Notes under the pieces: model-generated
The model's database searches: none
Told to the model about the DNA's origin: nothing
The model's input: only the letters and a program-made list of their open reading frames with translations
Origin: an uncultured Actinomycetes bacterium
GTDB taxonomy: Bacteria; Actinomycetota; Acidimicrobiia; Acidimicrobiales; Microtrichaceae
Length of the DNA stretch: 63,344 bases
Direction of reading: 5' to 3'
NCBI GenBank assembly: GCA_903852755.1
Contig: CAINRS010000130.1
Location: forward strand, 1-63,344
Made by a program: the position numbers and the translations under genes
Part shown: positions 20,394-56,809 of the stretch, piece by piece
Layout: each line of letters starts with the position of its first letter
Position numbering within the stretch: the first letter of the stretch is position 1

Positions 20394-20494
20394 GGCTGCG
20401 CCATCCCGTCGCCTCAGGCGGCTGTGTCATCCCGTCGCCTCAGGCGGCTGCGCCATCCCGTCGCCTCAGGCGGCTGTGACATCCCGTCGCCTCA
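20391..20494. repeat. 26-bp tandem repeat, four copies, between convergent stops
   Basis: Units at 20391-20416, 20417-20442, 20443-20468 and 20469-20494, each close to GGCGGCTGTGTCATCCCGTC + GCCTCA; differences are at a few positions. The first unit begins with the TGA stop of the PhoX-like gene; the last ends with the TCA that is the stop of the minus-strand AIM24-like gene. GCCTCAGGC in each unit is near-palindromic, so neighbouring units can pair. A bidirectional terminator made by unit duplication is the simplest reading. Confidence 0.75.
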
Positions 20495-21328
20495 GGCGAC
20501 GGTGTGCACGACTCCCTCGGGTTCGACGATGACGAACCCGCCGGGTGAGAACTCCAGCTGGAACGCCTCGCCCGACCCCCGGCCGATCAGGGCACCGGCG
20601 CTGAACGACGACCGCACCGTCACCTGCAGCCCGGCGGTCCACGCCACGACGGCGTTGGGGTCGACACAGGTCCTCGCCTCGGACGTGTCGAGCACCACGG
20701 GCCAGTCGGACGCGAGGATCACGGTCCCCGGCCCGGTCAGCGTCACGTTGAACAGGCCACCGGCCGCCGCGGCACCGATGCCCCCCTTGATGGCGTTGAT
20801 GTCCCACGACACGGAGTCGTCGAAGCCGAGCAGGGCGCGCGACGACGCGGAGATCCGTTCGCCGGGGCCCAGGTCCAGCAGGTGGAGCCGGTGGTTCCGG
20901 TGCGACACGAACAGCTCGCCGGCACCGGAGCAGCGCATGAGCCGGACGCCCTCGCCGGTCAGTGACGCCTTCACGAACCGCTTGGCTCCGGAGCCCTCGT
21001 ACGCGAACTGCACCTCACCCTGGTAGGCGATCATTGCGCCCCGGGTCACCAGGAGCGGGGTGCCGAGCGTCACCTTGACCACGGCCGGGTTCTGGCGGGT
21101 CATCCGTCCGGTGGTCGGTTGCTCCCGGTTCTCCCGGGCGAACAGGGTCGAACCCGCGAGTCCCGAGGACGGTGCCGGCGACTGTCCGCCGACGCCCGCT
21201 CCGTCGCCGTCCGGGGCGGCGGCCGCCACCTCCGGTGCCGGAGCGGTGTGCTCGGTCCACTGGGTCCCGTCCCACCACCGCAGTTGTGAGGGATCCTGGG
21301 GGTCCGGGTGCCACGCTGCCTCGTCCAC
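20492..21328 (-). CDS. DUF2510-AIM24 family protein
   Basis: 278 aa. The first 20 residues are a DUF2510 module (WHPDPQDPSQLRWWDGTQWT). After a Pro/Ala-rich linker, about 75-278 is an AIM24-type beta domain (TRGAMIAYQGEVQF, GEGVRLMRCSGAGELFVS, TVILASDWPVVLD, LIGRGSGEAFQLEF). AIM24 proteins have no firmly known bacterial function. The GTG start has GGGAGGGA upstream; the open frame upstream of it is not coding. A second DUF2510 protein, fused to an AAA ATPase, lies at 9370-10980. Confidence 0.7.
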   Translation of the reverse strand: MDEAAWHPDPQDPSQLRWWDGTQWTEHTAPAPEVAAAAPDGDGAGVGGQSPAPSSGLAGSTLFARENREQPTTGRMTRQNPAVVKVTLGTPLLVTRGAMIAYQGEVQFAYEGSGAKRFVKASLTGEGVRLMRCSGAGELFVSHRNHRLHLLDLGPGERISASSRALLGFDDSVSWDINAIKGGIGAAAAGGLFNVTLTGPGTVILASDWPVVLDTSEARTCVDPNAVVAWTAGLQVTVRSSFSAGALIGRGSGEAFQLEFSPGGFVIVEPEGVVHTVA

Positions 21329-52014: not shown

Positions 52015-53085
52015 GTGGAACACCGGGATCCCGACCTACTGGAGGCGTTGGCGGCCGTTGCGCCGGGTCAACCCCTCCGTGAGGGTCTCGACCGGATCCT
52101 CAAGGCCAAGATGGGTGCCCTCATCGTGATCGGTGACGGTCCCGAGGTGCTCAACATCTCCTCGGGTGGCTTCCTGGTCAACGCCGCGTACAACGCCCAG
52201 CGGCTGTCGGAACTGGCCAAGACCGACGGTGCGATCGTGCTCACGCCCGACGTCAGCTACATCGCCCGGGCCAACGTGCACCTGATGCCCAACCCGAACG
52301 TCCCCACCGAGGAGACGGGGACGCGGCACCGCACGGCTGAGCGGGTGGCCAGGTCGATCGGCGTCCCGGTGATCTCGGTGTCCGAGGACATGGCGGTCGT
52401 GACCGTCTACACGCGCAACTCCCGCTACCAACTCGAGCCGATCCCGGCGATCCTCAGCAGGTGCGACCTGGCGCTCCAGACCCTGGAGCGCTACAAGCAG
52501 CGGCTCAACGAGGAGTCCAACAACCTCAGCTACCTCGAGGTCGAGGACCAGGTGACGCTCCGCGACGTGGTGACGCTGCTCCAGCGTGCGGAGATGGTGG
52601 CCCGCATCTCCGACGAGATCGAGCGACACCTCGTGGAACTCGGCACCGACGGTCGCCTCATCCGGCTCCAGCTCAACGAGATGCTCGCCGGGGTCGAGGA
52701 CGAACGTCTGCTCGTGGTCAGGGACTACGTCCAGGACGACGCAGCGTGGGATCTGGAACAGGCCATCGAGACCCTCGGCCAACTCGACACCGACCACCTG
52801 TTCGATGCAGAGGAGATCGCCCACCTGCTGCACCTCTCCGGCGAGGCCGACGAGCTCGACTCGCCGGTCGCCCCCAAGGGTCACCGCATGCTGGCACGGG
52901 TCCAGCGGGTGCCCGAGGAGGTCCGCAGTGCGGTGGTGGCCCACTGCGGTTCGCTCGAGAAGCTCATGCGTTCGTCGGTCGACGAGCTCGCCGCCGTCGA
53001 CGGCGTGGGTGAGGTGTGGGCCAGGACCATCAAGGACGCGCTCGACCGGATCGCCGAGTCGAGCATCCTCGACCGGTACGCCTGA
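52015..53085 (+). CDS. disA: DNA-integrity scanning diadenylate cyclase
   Basis: 356-aa enzyme producing cyclic di-AMP from ATP and inhibited by branched DNA. The catalytic DAC domain (about 8-150) has the DGA motif KTDGAIVLTPD and the RHR motif TGTRHRTAERVAR. A helical linker and a C-terminal helix-hairpin-helix DNA-binding domain (about 300-356: SSVDELAAVDGVGEVWARTI) follow. The start is set by the -10 box six bases upstream. No c-di-AMP phosphodiesterase is seen nearby. Confidence 0.95.
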   Translation: MEHRDPDLLEALAAVAPGQPLREGLDRILKAKMGALIVIGDGPEVLNISSGGFLVNAAYNAQRLSELAKTDGAIVLTPDVSYIARANVHLMPNPNVPTEETGTRHRTAERVARSIGVPVISVSEDMAVVTVYTRNSRYQLEPIPAILSRCDLALQTLERYKQRLNEESNNLSYLEVEDQVTLRDVVTLLQRAEMVARISDEIERHLVELGTDGRLIRLQLNEMLAGVEDERLLVVRDYVQDDAAWDLEQAIETLGQLDTDHLFDAEEIAHLLHLSGEADELDSPVAPKGHRMLARVQRVPEEVRSAVVAHCGSLEKLMRSSVDELAAVDGVGEVWARTIKDALDRIAESSILDRYA

Positions 53086-53122
53086 TCCCGACCGACGGGG
53101 CGGGACCGGGCAGGTCACCCCG

Positions 53123-53128
53123 TAGGCT
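53123..53128 (+). promoter_or_regulatory. -10 box of the dienelactone-hydrolase-like gene, leaderless
   Basis: TAGGCT, 6 bases before the GTG at 53135. Confidence 0.5.
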
Positions 53129-53134
53129 CGGAGT

Positions 53135-53806
53135 GTGCAGGTGGAACTCGCATCCGGGACCCCGGGGCACGTCGCCCGGACCGAGGGCGCCGAGCGCGGG
53201 CTCGTGGTCGTCCCCGACATCTGGGGACTCCGGCCGCTGTTCACCGACCTCTGCCACACGCTGGCAGCGCGCACCGGGTGGACGGTCGCGACCTTCGAGC
53301 CGTTCCCCGGACAGGTGCTCCCCGACGCCGATGACCCGGATGCTGCGGCGGCCCGGTTCGCTGCGCTCGCCGGGCTCCGGGACGACGACCTGCTCGGCGA
53401 CGCCGTCGCCGCTGCCGACCTGACCGACGCCCCCCGGGTGGGACTCGTCGGGTTCTGCATGGGTGGGATGTACGCCCTGCTCGCATCGGCGACCGGTCGG
53501 TTCGACCGGATCGTCTCGTGCTACGGGATGATCGAGGTGCCCGAGGCGTGGCGAGGTCCGGGTCACGGTGAACCGCTCGACGCCCTGGCCGCACGTGGAC
53601 CGGTGCAGGTGGCCGCGGTGGTGGGGACGGCGGACCACTGGACACCTGCCGAGCAGGTCGACCGGCTCGAGGCGGCCGGTGTGAGCGTGCTGCGGTACGA
53701 GGGTGCGGACCACGGGTTCATCCACGACCCGGCCCGTCCGACGCACCGGGCGGACGACGCGGCGGACGCCTGGGACCGGATCCTCGCGTTCCTCGCCGGT
53801 GTGTGA
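53135..53806 (+). CDS. dienelactone hydrolase family protein
   Basis: 223-aa alpha/beta hydrolase. The nucleophile elbow is GFCMGG with cysteine, as in dienelactone hydrolases; the acid is probably the Asp of VGTADHWTP and the base the His of GADHGFIHD. PDIWGLRPLF at about 27-36 fits the oxyanion region. The natural substrate is unknown. Leaderless promoter; the TGA stop is in the first unit of a 20-bp tandem repeat. Confidence 0.82.
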   Translation: MQVELASGTPGHVARTEGAERGLVVVPDIWGLRPLFTDLCHTLAARTGWTVATFEPFPGQVLPDADDPDAAAARFAALAGLRDDDLLGDAVAAADLTDAPRVGLVGFCMGGMYALLASATGRFDRIVSCYGMIEVPEAWRGPGHGEPLDALAARGPVQVAAVVGTADHWTPAEQVDRLEAAGVSVLRYEGADHGFIHDPARPTHRADDAADAWDRILAFLAGV

Positions 53807-53860
53807 CCGGTCAGGCCGGCGAGTGACCGGTCAGGCCGGCGAACGACCGGTCAGGTCGAG
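53801..53860. repeat. 20-bp tandem repeat, three copies, between convergent stops
   Basis: Units at 53801-53820, 53821-53840 and 53841-53860, the first two differing at only two bases. Each carries TGACCGGTCA (CGACCGGTCA in the third), a perfect 10-bp palindrome. The TGA of the hydrolase is in unit 1 and the TCA stopping the Crp-like gene in unit 3. Two neighbouring palindromes can fold into a 10-bp stem with a 10-base loop, so this can act as a terminator in both directions. Confidence 0.8.
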
Positions 53861-54510
53861 CGGATCTCGAGCTCGCGGCGGTTGAGGATCCGGTAGTTCC
53901 GGTCCTCCTGTTCGATCCACCCGAGCTTGAGGAAGCTGGCGATCGCCTTGTTGACCCGCTCACGCGAGGCGCCGACCAGACCGGCGAGCTCCTCCTGGGT
54001 GATCGGGATCTCGAACTCCTCACGGTCGCCCGCCAGATCCAGGAGGTGCTTGGCCGTCCGGCCCGTGACGTCCAGGAAGAAGGCGTCGGCCAGTGCCTCG
54101 TCGGTCGAGCGGATCCGTTGGCTCAGCAGGCCGACCACCGACCACAACAGCTCGGGGCGGTCGTCCCACACGGCCCGGAGCGCCTCGTAGGGGATGCGGA
54201 TCGCCTGGGAGGACTCGAGCGCGCGGGCCTCGGCCGAGCGACCCAGCCCGTCGAAGAGCCCCATCTCCCCGAACAGGTCACCGCGTTCCATGAGGGCGAC
54301 CATCGACTCGCGTCCGTCGACGGACCGGTTCGAGATGGCGATCCGACCGTCGGTCACGACGTAGCAGGCGTCGGCCTCGGCGCCCTCGGTGAACAGCACG
54401 TCGCCCCGGACCAGGTCCATCAGGTCGGCGGCATCGGCGAGGCGACGGTGCTCGTCGTCACTGAAGCCGCCGAAGAGCTCGACGGTGCGGAGCAGGCTCA
54501 TGTCGGACAC
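53851..54510 (-). CDS. Crp/Fnr-family transcriptional regulator
   Basis: 219 aa. Cyclic-nucleotide-binding beta-roll (about 15-125: GDVLFTEGAEADACYVVTDG, GDLFGEMGLFDGLGRSAEARA) and C-terminal winged helix (about 150-219: ITQEELAGLVGASRERVNKA). The phosphate-binding cassette position (GEMGLF...RSAEA) is Crp-like, so cAMP or a similar ligand is possible. I start it at GTG 54510, seven bases from TACAGT; ATG 54501 is the alternative. It is divergent from ispD across 24 bases. Confidence 0.88.
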   Translation of the reverse strand: MSDMSLLRTVELFGGFSDDEHRRLADAADLMDLVRGDVLFTEGAEADACYVVTDGRIAISNRSVDGRESMVALMERGDLFGEMGLFDGLGRSAEARALESSQAIRIPYEALRAVWDDRPELLWSVVGLLSQRIRSTDEALADAFFLDVTGRTAKHLLDLAGDREEFEIPITQEELAGLVGASRERVNKAIASFLKLGWIEQEDRNYRILNRRELEIRST

Positions 54511-54517
54511 CGCGCAG

Positions 54518-54527
54518 ACTGTACCGT
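54518..54527. promoter_or_regulatory. shared divergent -10 core, crp-like / ispD
   Basis: ACTGTACCGT. Minus-strand TACAGT (54518-54523) lies 7 bases before the Crp-like GTG; plus-strand TACCGT (54522-54527) lies 7 bases before the ispD GTG at 54535. The two share the central TA, so polymerase cannot occupy both at once. Confidence 0.55.
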
Positions 54528-54534
54528 GCCGGTG

Positions 54535-55263
54535 GTGACGGGAATTCTCGCCCCCGAGGGCTCGGTCTGGTGCGTCGTCGTCGCAGCCGGCTCCGGTCGG
54601 CGATACGGCGGAGCCAAGCAGTTCGAGTCGGTCGGGGGCGTCCGGGTGCTCGATCGGAGCCTCGACGTGGCGCTCGATCGCTGCGACGGGGTGGTCCTCG
54701 TCGTGGCCGCCGACGCCGTCGAAGGCGAGCGACGGCTGGCTGCGGCCCGGCGGGCCGAGGGCGTCGCTGCCCCTGCGGCCGTGGTGGCCGGTGGGTCCAC
54801 ACGTTCGGAGTCGGTCCGACGGGGTCTGGACGAGGTCCCCGCGGATGCCGACGTGGTGGTGGTCCACGACGCCGCCCGACCGCTCGCCCCGGCGGAGTTG
54901 TTCGACCGTGTCGTGCGGGCGGTCCGGTCGGGTGCAGCGGGGGCGGTCCCCGTGGTGCCCGTCGTCGACACCATCAGGGACGTCGACGGTGGTGTCGTCG
55001 ATCGTGAACGGCTCCGGGCGGTGCAGACCCCCCAGGCGTTCGACGCGGCGGCTCTGCGGGCAGCGCACGCCGGAGTGTCGGAGGCGACCGACGACGCCGC
55101 CCTCGTGCAGGCGGCCGGAGGCACGCTGGCCATGGTCGAGGGAGCGGTCCGCAACATCAAGCTGACGACCCCGGAGGACCGGATCGTCATCGACGCCTTC
55201 CTCGCCGCCGGTGACGGCGGCTCGGAGTCGGCGCCCGACGCCCCGGGTGGGGGAGACTCGTGA
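54535..55263 (+). CDS. ispD: 2-C-methyl-D-erythritol 4-phosphate cytidylyltransferase
   Basis: 242-aa MEP-pathway enzyme. Nucleotide-binding motif VVAAGSGRRYGGAKQFESVG at about 17-36, VVVHDAARPLAP, and C-terminal VRNIKLTTPEDRIVI are diagnostic. Of two tandem GTGs I chose the second, 7 bases from the -10 box. In mycobacteria carD precedes ispD; here the preceding gene is the divergent Crp-like regulator. The stop overlaps the ispF start. Confidence 0.95.
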   Translation: MTGILAPEGSVWCVVVAAGSGRRYGGAKQFESVGGVRVLDRSLDVALDRCDGVVLVVAADAVEGERRLAAARRAEGVAAPAAVVAGGSTRSESVRRGLDEVPADADVVVVHDAARPLAPAELFDRVVRAVRSGAAGAVPVVPVVDTIRDVDGGVVDRERLRAVQTPQAFDAAALRAAHAGVSEATDDAALVQAAGGTLAMVEGAVRNIKLTTPEDRIVIDAFLAAGDGGSESAPDAPGGGDS

Positions 55264-55745
55264 CCGTGACCATGCGAGTCGGCAACGGGTTCGACATCCA
55301 CCGGTTCGGCGATGATCCCGACCGTCCGCTGGTCCTCGCCGGTGTCGTGGTTCCCGGAACCCCCGGCCTGCTCGGCCACTCCGACGCCGATGTCGTCGCC
55401 CACGCCGTGGCCGATGCGCTGCTCGGATCGGTTGGCCTGGGCGACATCGGGATGCTGTTCCCCGACACCGACGATCGGTGGCGGGGCGCCGACAGCATCG
55501 AGCTGCTCGCCGAGGTCGTTCGTCGACTCCGCGCCGACGGGTGGCGGGTGGTCAACGTGGACTGCTCGGTGATCGCCGAGCGTCCGGCGATCGCGCCGCA
55601 TCGTGAGCAGATGCGGGAGCGGCTCGCCGAGGTGGTCGAGGCTCCCGTGTCGGTCAAGGGTCGTCGGGCCGAGGGGATCGGTGGCCTCGGCCGGGCCGAG
55701 GGGATCGCGTGTCTGGCGAGCGTCCTGGTGGAGCGCGACCGGTGA
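55260..55745 (+). CDS. ispF: 2-C-methyl-D-erythritol 2,4-cyclodiphosphate synthase
   Basis: 161-aa trimeric zinc enzyme following IspD/IspE in isoprenoid synthesis. Zinc ligands in GFDIHRF and GHSDADVVAHAV; LGDIGMLFPDTD and the C-terminal GRAEGIACLA are standard. Starts by GTGA overlap with ispD; the ATG nine bases later is possible. Confidence 0.95.
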   Translation: MTVTMRVGNGFDIHRFGDDPDRPLVLAGVVVPGTPGLLGHSDADVVAHAVADALLGSVGLGDIGMLFPDTDDRWRGADSIELLAEVVRRLRADGWRVVNVDCSVIAERPAIAPHREQMRERLAEVVEAPVSVKGRRAEGIGGLGRAEGIACLASVLVERDR

Positions 55746-56809
55746 GTCGTCGTGCCGGGGGCAGCGGCCGAGGTGGCCGATCCGGTGGCGGATCCGGTGG
55801 CGGATCCGGTGGTCGTCCGCCGGGTGGCCGCGGTGCGCCGGGCCGGGGTGGCGGGCGCGGTGGCGCCGGTGGCTCCTCCGGTCGGGGCGGTGCCCGGAGT
55901 GCCGGTGGTCGGAGCGGCGGCACCCGCGGGGGTGCACCCGGGTCCCGCAGCGGCGGCACCCGCGGGGGTGCGCCCGGGTCCCGCAGCGGCGGTGGCAGGC
56001 CGGACCGGGCGACCGGACCCAGGCCGACCGGTCGCACGACTCCACCCAAGGAGCGCGGCGTCGGCGGCACGCAGGTCGAGGGTCGTCAGGCGGTCCGGGA
56101 GCTGCTGCTCGCCGGCCGTCGGACGGTCTACGAGCTGCTGGTCGCCGGTGACGTCGAGGAGGGGAGCACGCTCGAGGACATCGTCGAGCTGGCGGACGAA
56201 CTCCGTGTCCCGGTGACCTCGGTGTCGGCCGGTCGGCTCGAGTCGGTGGCCCGCACCGAGGCACCGCAGGGCGTCGTGGCGCGTGCGGCGGAGCTGCCCG
56301 ACGTCGAGCTCGCCGACCTGGTGCGGACGACGGGTCGGGGCGGCCCGGCCGGACCGCCGTTCCTGTTGGCGGTGGACGGGGTGACCGACCCGGGCAACCT
56401 GGGGGCGCTCCTGCGGATCGCCGAGTGTGCCGGTGTCACGGGCGTCGTCCTGCCCCGGCACCGGACGGTCCACGTCACCCCGACCGTGACGAAGGCCGCC
56501 GCCGGGGCGGTCGAGTACCTGTCCTTCGCCCTCCCGGCCGGACTGCCACGAGCGGTCAGCGACCTGCGCGAGCTCGGTGTCTGGGTGGTCGGCCTCGATG
56601 CGGATGGCCCGACGCCCGTCCACGACCTCGCGGTGGCGGACCAGCCGGTCTGCCTGGTGGTCGGGGCCGAGGGCCCCGGACTCTCCAGGCTGGTGCGGGA
56701 ACGGTGCGACGTCGTGGCGTCGATCCCACTCCACGGACGGCTGGCCTCGCTCAACGTGGCGAGCGCCGGCGCGATCGCGTGCTACGAGGTCGCCCGACGC
56801 CGGGCGTGA
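55742..56809 (+). CDS. rlmB: 23S rRNA 2'-O-methyltransferase RlmB-like (SpoU family) with long Gly/Arg/Ser N-terminus
   Basis: 355 aa. The first about 100 residues are Gly/Ser/Arg-rich and repetitive, probably disordered and RNA-binding. GVGGTQVEGRQAVRELLLAG starts the substrate-binding domain (about 100-185). The SPOUT knot domain has VDGVTDPGNLGALLR, VVGAEGPGLSRLVRERCD and SIPLHGRLASLNVASAGAI. The GTG start overlaps ispF; a start just before the folded domain cannot be excluded. cysS, which lies between ispF and rlmB in mycobacteria, is missing. Confidence 0.85.
   Translation: MSRRAGGSGRGGRSGGGSGGGSGGRPPGGRGAPGRGGGRGGAGGSSGRGGARSAGGRSGGTRGGAPGSRSGGTRGGAPGSRSGGGRPDRATGPRPTGRTTPPKERGVGGTQVEGRQAVRELLLAGRRTVYELLVAGDVEEGSTLEDIVELADELRVPVTSVSAGRLESVARTEAPQGVVARAAELPDVELADLVRTTGRGGPAGPPFLLAVDGVTDPGNLGALLRIAECAGVTGVVLPRHRTVHVTPTVTKAAAGAVEYLSFALPAGLPRAVSDLRELGVWVVGLDADGPTPVHDLAVADQPVCLVVGAEGPGLSRLVRERCDVVASIPLHGRLASLNVASAGAIACYEVARRRA
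55772..55807 (+). repeat. 12-bp tandem repeat, three copies
   Basis: GGTGGCGGATCC-type units at 55772, 55784 and 55796 encoding GSGG repeats in the rlmB N-terminus; the first unit has one mismatch. Confidence 0.65.
55916..55987 (+). repeat. 36-bp tandem duplication in the rlmB N-terminus
   Basis: Two adjacent 36-base units (55916-55951, 55952-55987) that differ at a single base, encoding GGTRGGAPGSRS twice. The near identity points to a recent in-frame duplication. Confidence 0.75.

Follow-up and report, generated by a model that had tools for sequence, protein, structure and literature searches.

The Array at the Convergent Junction

Analysis of the window, as we call the whole 63,344-nt stretch of DNA examined here, led to a 20-bp tandem array lying across the ends of two head-on genes, which appears to be an ordinary short duplication of the sort present at several gene ends of this genome, and not a dedicated switch. 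Quite probably a compact convergent junction was locally duplicated in tandem, and the result was tolerated since the outer stop codons protect both proteins, the hairpin being a by-product. The first of the two genes (53135-53806, forward strand) is an ORF of the dienelactone hydrolase family (Pfam DLH, PF01738, E-value = 2e-21). The second (53851-54501, reverse strand) encodes a Crp/FNR-like regulator harboring the cNMP-binding (PF00027, E-value = 1.1e-21) and Crp HTH (HTH_Crp_2, PF13545, E-value = 2.9e-15) domains; its start was set at 54501 by homology, as close relatives align from residue 1-3.

Tandem Repeats Finder (TRF) delimited the array at 53795-53855, with 3.0 copies, 90% matches, a score of 94 and the consensus GCCGGCGAGTGACCGGTCAG, and a separate repeat search placed three copies in register, starting at 53795, 53815 and 53835. 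Copy 1 (53795-53814) consists of the final three codons of the hydrolase, its stop TGA (53804-53806), CCGG, TCA and one more base, G, so that the unit contains both stops; its palindrome TGACCGGTCA occupies 53804-53813. Copy 2 (53815-53834) carries the same palindrome, exact, at 53824-53833, and the unit GCCGGYGWGTGACCGGTCAG is present in both of these copies. Copy 3 (53835-53854) differs at two further places besides the changed first base of its palindrome, CGACCGGTCA at 53844-53853, and it supplies the stop of the Crp-like gene (TCA, 53851-53853). The three palindromic units, the last off by one base, and the assignment of the two stops to the first and third unit thus agree with the preliminary description, although the array, present as described, sits slightly further left than the 53801-53860 given there. 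The spacer between the stop codons (53807-53850) measures 44 bp, i.e., 4 bp plus two 20-bp units, and reducing the array to one unit leaves TGA-CCGG-TCA with a 4-bp spacer. The tail LAGV followed by the stop is common to the hydrolases of three of the five congeners (L003, L004, and L005), which argues that copy 1 holds the ancestral stop.

The palindrome itself is partly automatic: two TGA stops on opposite strands necessarily give TGA...TCA, which leaves the CCGG core and its 4-bp spacing as all that has to match. TGA/TCA is the ending of 90 of the 103 convergent pairs sampled in this genome. The array is beyond chance. Its tandem score of 29 was not attained in any of 100 dinucleotide shuffles made from the junction, and the top score in three shuffles of the whole window was 13. 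Among the nine arrays of the window that score at least 13 it ranks fourth. A stronger sibling lies at 20394-20498, where four copies of a 26-bp unit occupy a second convergent junction and the minus-strand stop is copied. Arrays of 12-bp and 36-bp units were also seen at 55772-55992, inside a called ORF after a gene that we take to be ispF-like.

The Hydrolase/Crp Junction in Related Genomes

Of the 61 genomes searched, the window's own included, 59 gave a match to the Crp-like protein (E-value up to 0.001), a few matches being weak and probably paralogues. From 110 loci (30 + 80), 67 distinct convergent hydrolase/Crp junctions were kept; four loci were dropped with Crp off the contig end, 23 with no hydrolase match in the locus DNA examined and 16 as duplicates. 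Spacers at the 67 junctions range from -4 to 966 bp, 18 of them being at most 10 bp long and one exactly 4 bp. In nine cases (L010-L013, L020, L115-L117, and L121) the two stops overlap as TTAG or CTAA (spacer -4). The junction sequence is not conserved: it looks unrelated between most species, congeners included, and the 20-bp unit of the window was not found, in one or two copies, at any of the relatives' junctions examined. Tandem scores of at least 13 were obtained at 7 of 50 orthologous junctions with spacers of 5-130 bp (the window's counted), with units that differ from one another; the array of L114 likewise copies the hydrolase stop.

Gene content at this place varies as well. In four of the five congeners other genes separate the hydrolase from Crp, namely one small gene in all four and a second one in two of these. 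The first (L131:3238-3630 in G002, forward strand, approximately 131 codons) has homologues in G003, G004, and G005, and the second (L131:2737-3156, reverse strand, 140 codons) adjoins it and occurs also in G005. Searches of the window's genome and of G001 gave no homologue of either gene, and a Pfam search with both gave no match. In a tree built from concatenated hydrolase and Crp proteins, with the hydrolase sequences of L005 and L006 cut by the locus end, the window's genome falls beside G004 and G005 (support 99/99). As both of these carry the first small gene, the simplest account of its absence from the window's genome is a loss, and hydrolase and Crp probably became direct neighbors there secondarily.

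Inverted repeats were seen at some of the relatives' junctions. One inverted repeat of G004, TGAGCCG-GT-CGGCTCA, contains the ends of both the hydrolase and the small gene; this may be due to chance. The long hairpins at the junctions of L008 and L009, from two other genera, have common arms (GTTCTGTTC...GAACAGAAC) and may represent a terminator or a repeat element that the two share.

Tandem Arrays at Gene Ends

Arrays of this kind were then counted in samples from three genomes. The own-genome (G000) sample covers 686 kb. Counts in all three genomes are confined to spacers of 5-130 bp, a range into which, in G000, 70 of the 103 convergent junctions fall, 48 of the 89 divergent ones and 209 of the 361 co-directional ones. 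Genes in the samples were called by a simple codon-score ORF caller and some junctions may be wrong; the caller gave the Crp-like gene an over-long start and missed a neighboring gene, with stop positions unaffected. At a tandem score of at least 13, a threshold picked after arrays had already appeared in an earlier junction sample, G000 has arrays at 7/70 convergent junctions (the one under study and that at 20394 included), 10/209 co-directional junctions, 0/48 divergent junctions and 1/210 matched coding segments. The corresponding counts are 4/42, 4/112, 1/24, and 1/126 in G009 and 1/51, 5/122, 0/25, and 0/153 in G034. The excess of convergent over coding in G000 (Fisher P = 3e-4) has the same direction in G009 and, weakly, in G034, and pooling gives P = 2e-6 against coding and a marginal P = 0.02 against divergent junctions. 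Convergent and co-directional junctions do not differ significantly when pooled (P = 0.10), so the data show nothing that is peculiar to convergent junctions. When arrays were instead required to beat all 100 shuffles, the convergent-versus-coding contrast was smaller than by score 13, with convergent, co-directional, divergent and coding counts of 8/70, 13/209, 0/48, and 7/210 for G000, 6/42, 4/112, 2/24, and 3/126 for G009, and 2/51, 3/122, 1/25, and 4/153 for G034.

Concerning the stop codons, one is copied in 5/7 convergent arrays of G000, 3/4 of G009 and 0/1 of G034. Over all gene-end arrays a stop is copied in 17/31, with 12.7 expected under random placement (P = 0.05), in a test whose null requires positional overlap only while the observed count also requires identical letters. 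By class, this corresponds to 8/12 convergent arrays (8.2 expected) and 9/19 co-directional ones (4.5 expected); the five seen in convergent arrays of G000 equal random placement (5.3 expected). Special targeting of stop codons by duplication was rejected, with no excess over random placement in convergent arrays. A supply of backup stops in all frames was rejected too, because the third TGA on the forward strand reads CGA and multiples of three are not avoided among the periods of the stop-copying arrays (5/17 by manual count, no frame preference).

A Probable Origin by Duplication

Taken together, origin of the array by duplication is well supported. The starting point would have been a short convergent junction, TGA-CCGG-TCA, whose 20-bp unit (three final hydrolase codons, both stops and a base) was duplicated in tandem twice, the likeliest route being replication slippage or template switching. 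Translation would not notice a duplication that takes in both stop codons: either ribosome would still terminate at the outermost stop of its gene, both proteins would stay unchanged, and such events would hence be tolerated at gene ends. Since the unit contains a palindrome, extra copies inevitably can form hairpins, which may contribute somewhat to transcription termination as a side effect. Near-neutrality of the event, like slippage from a single-unit ancestor, is presumed in this scheme, and selection on the hairpin is possible.

The comparative data bear on this origin in both directions. The collapsed 4-bp spacer falls within the range of the relatives, and arrays with differing units do occur at orthologous junctions, but no one-copy or two-copy intermediate was found at those of the relatives. 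Given that hydrolase and Crp are not adjacent in four of the five congeners, the ancestor with a single palindrome is one that we infer. The preliminary description had proposed expansion from a junction where one palindrome ended both genes: expansion is supported by the spacer range and by the arrays, and its ancestor stays conjectural. It had also counted as adverse any finding that the relatives' junctions are unrelated and free of signs of expansion; unrelated they are, but signs of expansion are there.

The array thus illustrates how a spacer between head-on genes can grow without harm to either protein. With roughly one in ten sampled convergent junctions of its genome bearing a short array, gene ends may be where hairpins and spacer DNA keep arising. 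Terminators could evolve by a simple route through such arrays if copy number affected termination, although nothing in the analysis shows an effect of this kind.

Predicted Hairpin and Possible Termination

A different reading, which we consider unlikely, is that the array is a selected bidirectional terminator, in which the hairpin of paired copies would stop RNA polymerase in either transcript and block antisense read-through. Copies 1 and 2 are indeed predicted to pair, in line with the two-unit hairpin of the preliminary description, in a 10-bp stem at 53804-53833 with 10 nt between the arms (-17.1 kcal/mol, z = -3.1). Folding of 53795-53864 gives z = -3.6 on the forward and -2.8 on the reverse strand, so that a stable stem-loop is predicted on both, but it is weaker in a 100-nt context (z = -1.3 and -1.6 in one run, -1.4 and -1.8 in another), where it is unremarkable. 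Centred 100-nt windows with z below -2 on the given strand were obtained at 11/48 convergent junctions of the genome (48 of the 65 in the structure sample), against 5/80 mid-gene segments and 1/39 divergent junctions; the higher structure of convergent junctions makes termination by hairpins plausible in this organism. At another convergent junction of the genome (contig C137, 6858-6915, L143), a hairpin that is long, GC-rich and nearly perfect (z = -6.8 and -5.2), with no visible T-run, is a good candidate terminator of the organism.

The T-tract is absent on both strands, and no terminator-like site with a T-run was found on either strand in 52400-55400. A published survey, on the other hand, reports that many bacterial terminators do without poly-U trails, which are often absent (PMC8355165). 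The hydrolase stop codon is where the stem of copies 1 and 2 begins, and in Escherichia coli a terminator a few bp after a stop is reported to be almost fully repressed by ribosomes, with full efficiency reached beyond 27 nt from the stop in the system used there (PMC4824070). Past copy 1, structure on the forward strand is no better than in shuffles (z = -0.11). Conservation of a hairpin was not found among the 59 orthologous junctions scored; z below -2 was seen on some strand at 11 of them, the window's not being one, and on both strands at five. Where the spacer is shorter than 15 bp, unusual structure is the exception (z below -2 on either strand at 3/21). An Rfam search returned eight matches, all far below the gathering scores, and a known RNA family was rejected. 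The bidirectional terminator of the preliminary description, a possible role, thus finds support in the predicted hairpin and none in the T-tract, the context or the conservation.

A narrower version, that triplication built the bidirectional terminator, appears quite improbable. A ribosome at either stop would cover one outer unit, and the other two would pair approximately 20 nt downstream in each transcript; were this so, copy number would tune termination, and palindromic convergent stops would seed terminators via duplication. Folding beyond the outer unit does not favor this model on the forward strand, as given above, and favors it only mildly on the reverse strand, where z = -1.50 was obtained for the corresponding stretch and a different pairing wins.

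Other Explanations

We attach very little probability to an array of protein-binding sites, in which the palindrome every 20 bp (about two helical turns) would be recognized by a dimeric regulator. The perfect palindrome, the near-integral helical spacing and the adjoining regulator gene suit such an arrangement, and the genome has six sites against none for the control (the pattern read backwards). Two of the six, however, are the array itself and about three are expected by chance on a base-composition estimate; the other four lie in a convergent junction (C21), inside called genes (C69 and C162) and on a 3-kb contig (C41). No site with at most one mismatch exists from 53854 to the end of the window, hence none upstream of the Crp-like gene. 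An operator or iteron reading was set aside, sites being few and none of the other four being shown to lie at a promoter. Just as slight is the chance of an artefact of a fragmented assembly: the genome is in 168 contigs and the records of the named relatives are mostly metagenome-assembled, but the array, at 61 bp, is shorter than usual reads, its copies differ, and similar arrays exist in the single-contig genome G009.

REP elements are repeat units found at gene boundaries. Mycobacterial MIRU units are likewise known there (PMC12548453), and a mobile or interspersed repeat of either kind, inserted at the junction, is the explanation to which we give the least credence. The double palindrome at the spacing of the array occurs once in the genome, and other 19-mer matches in this genome all have two mismatches. 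One-mismatch matches exist in other genomes (L123 and L124 among them), and an exact 19-mer in the congener G003 sits in an ORF that we take to encode ribosomal protein S9. A mobile repeat was rejected, as there is a single locus in the genome.

Comparison with Known Systems

Bacterial intergenic short tandem repeats, or VNTR loci, form a known class, and a junction array arisen by local duplication resembles them: both consist of near-identical units, tens of bp long, that follow one another head to tail within a spacer, as the copy number and match percentage from TRF indicate. The present comparison covers one genome per species. Mycobacterial MIRUs share with the array repeat units that are tied to a gene boundary codon, but they are described as apparently mobile, inserted at start codons and coupled to the gene there (PMC12548453), whereas the unit studied here was found at a single locus, between convergent genes. 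Bidirectional intrinsic terminators, in the account given of them in PMC5381666, place one inverted repeat between two convergent genes, as does the junction; it differs from them in having no T-tract, no conservation and a stem that begins on a stop codon. In prokaryotes at large, inverted repeats are reported to be over-represented between genes, and tandem repeats of longer unit to be mostly normally represented (PMC4060949).

Our literature search, made in open-licence papers, did not find tandem stop-carrying units at a convergent junction described. The closest published parallel that we saw is the tandem repeats of Borg elements, the first unit of which is reported to lie within or partly within gene ends (PMC9879509). 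Of their intergenic unit lengths, only 14-38% are divisible by three, and one intergenic array has a 20-nt unit (PMC9879509). Borg repeats are many, perfect and A-rich (PMC9879509), whereas the array of the window is single, GC-rich and imperfect and belongs to a bacterial genome.
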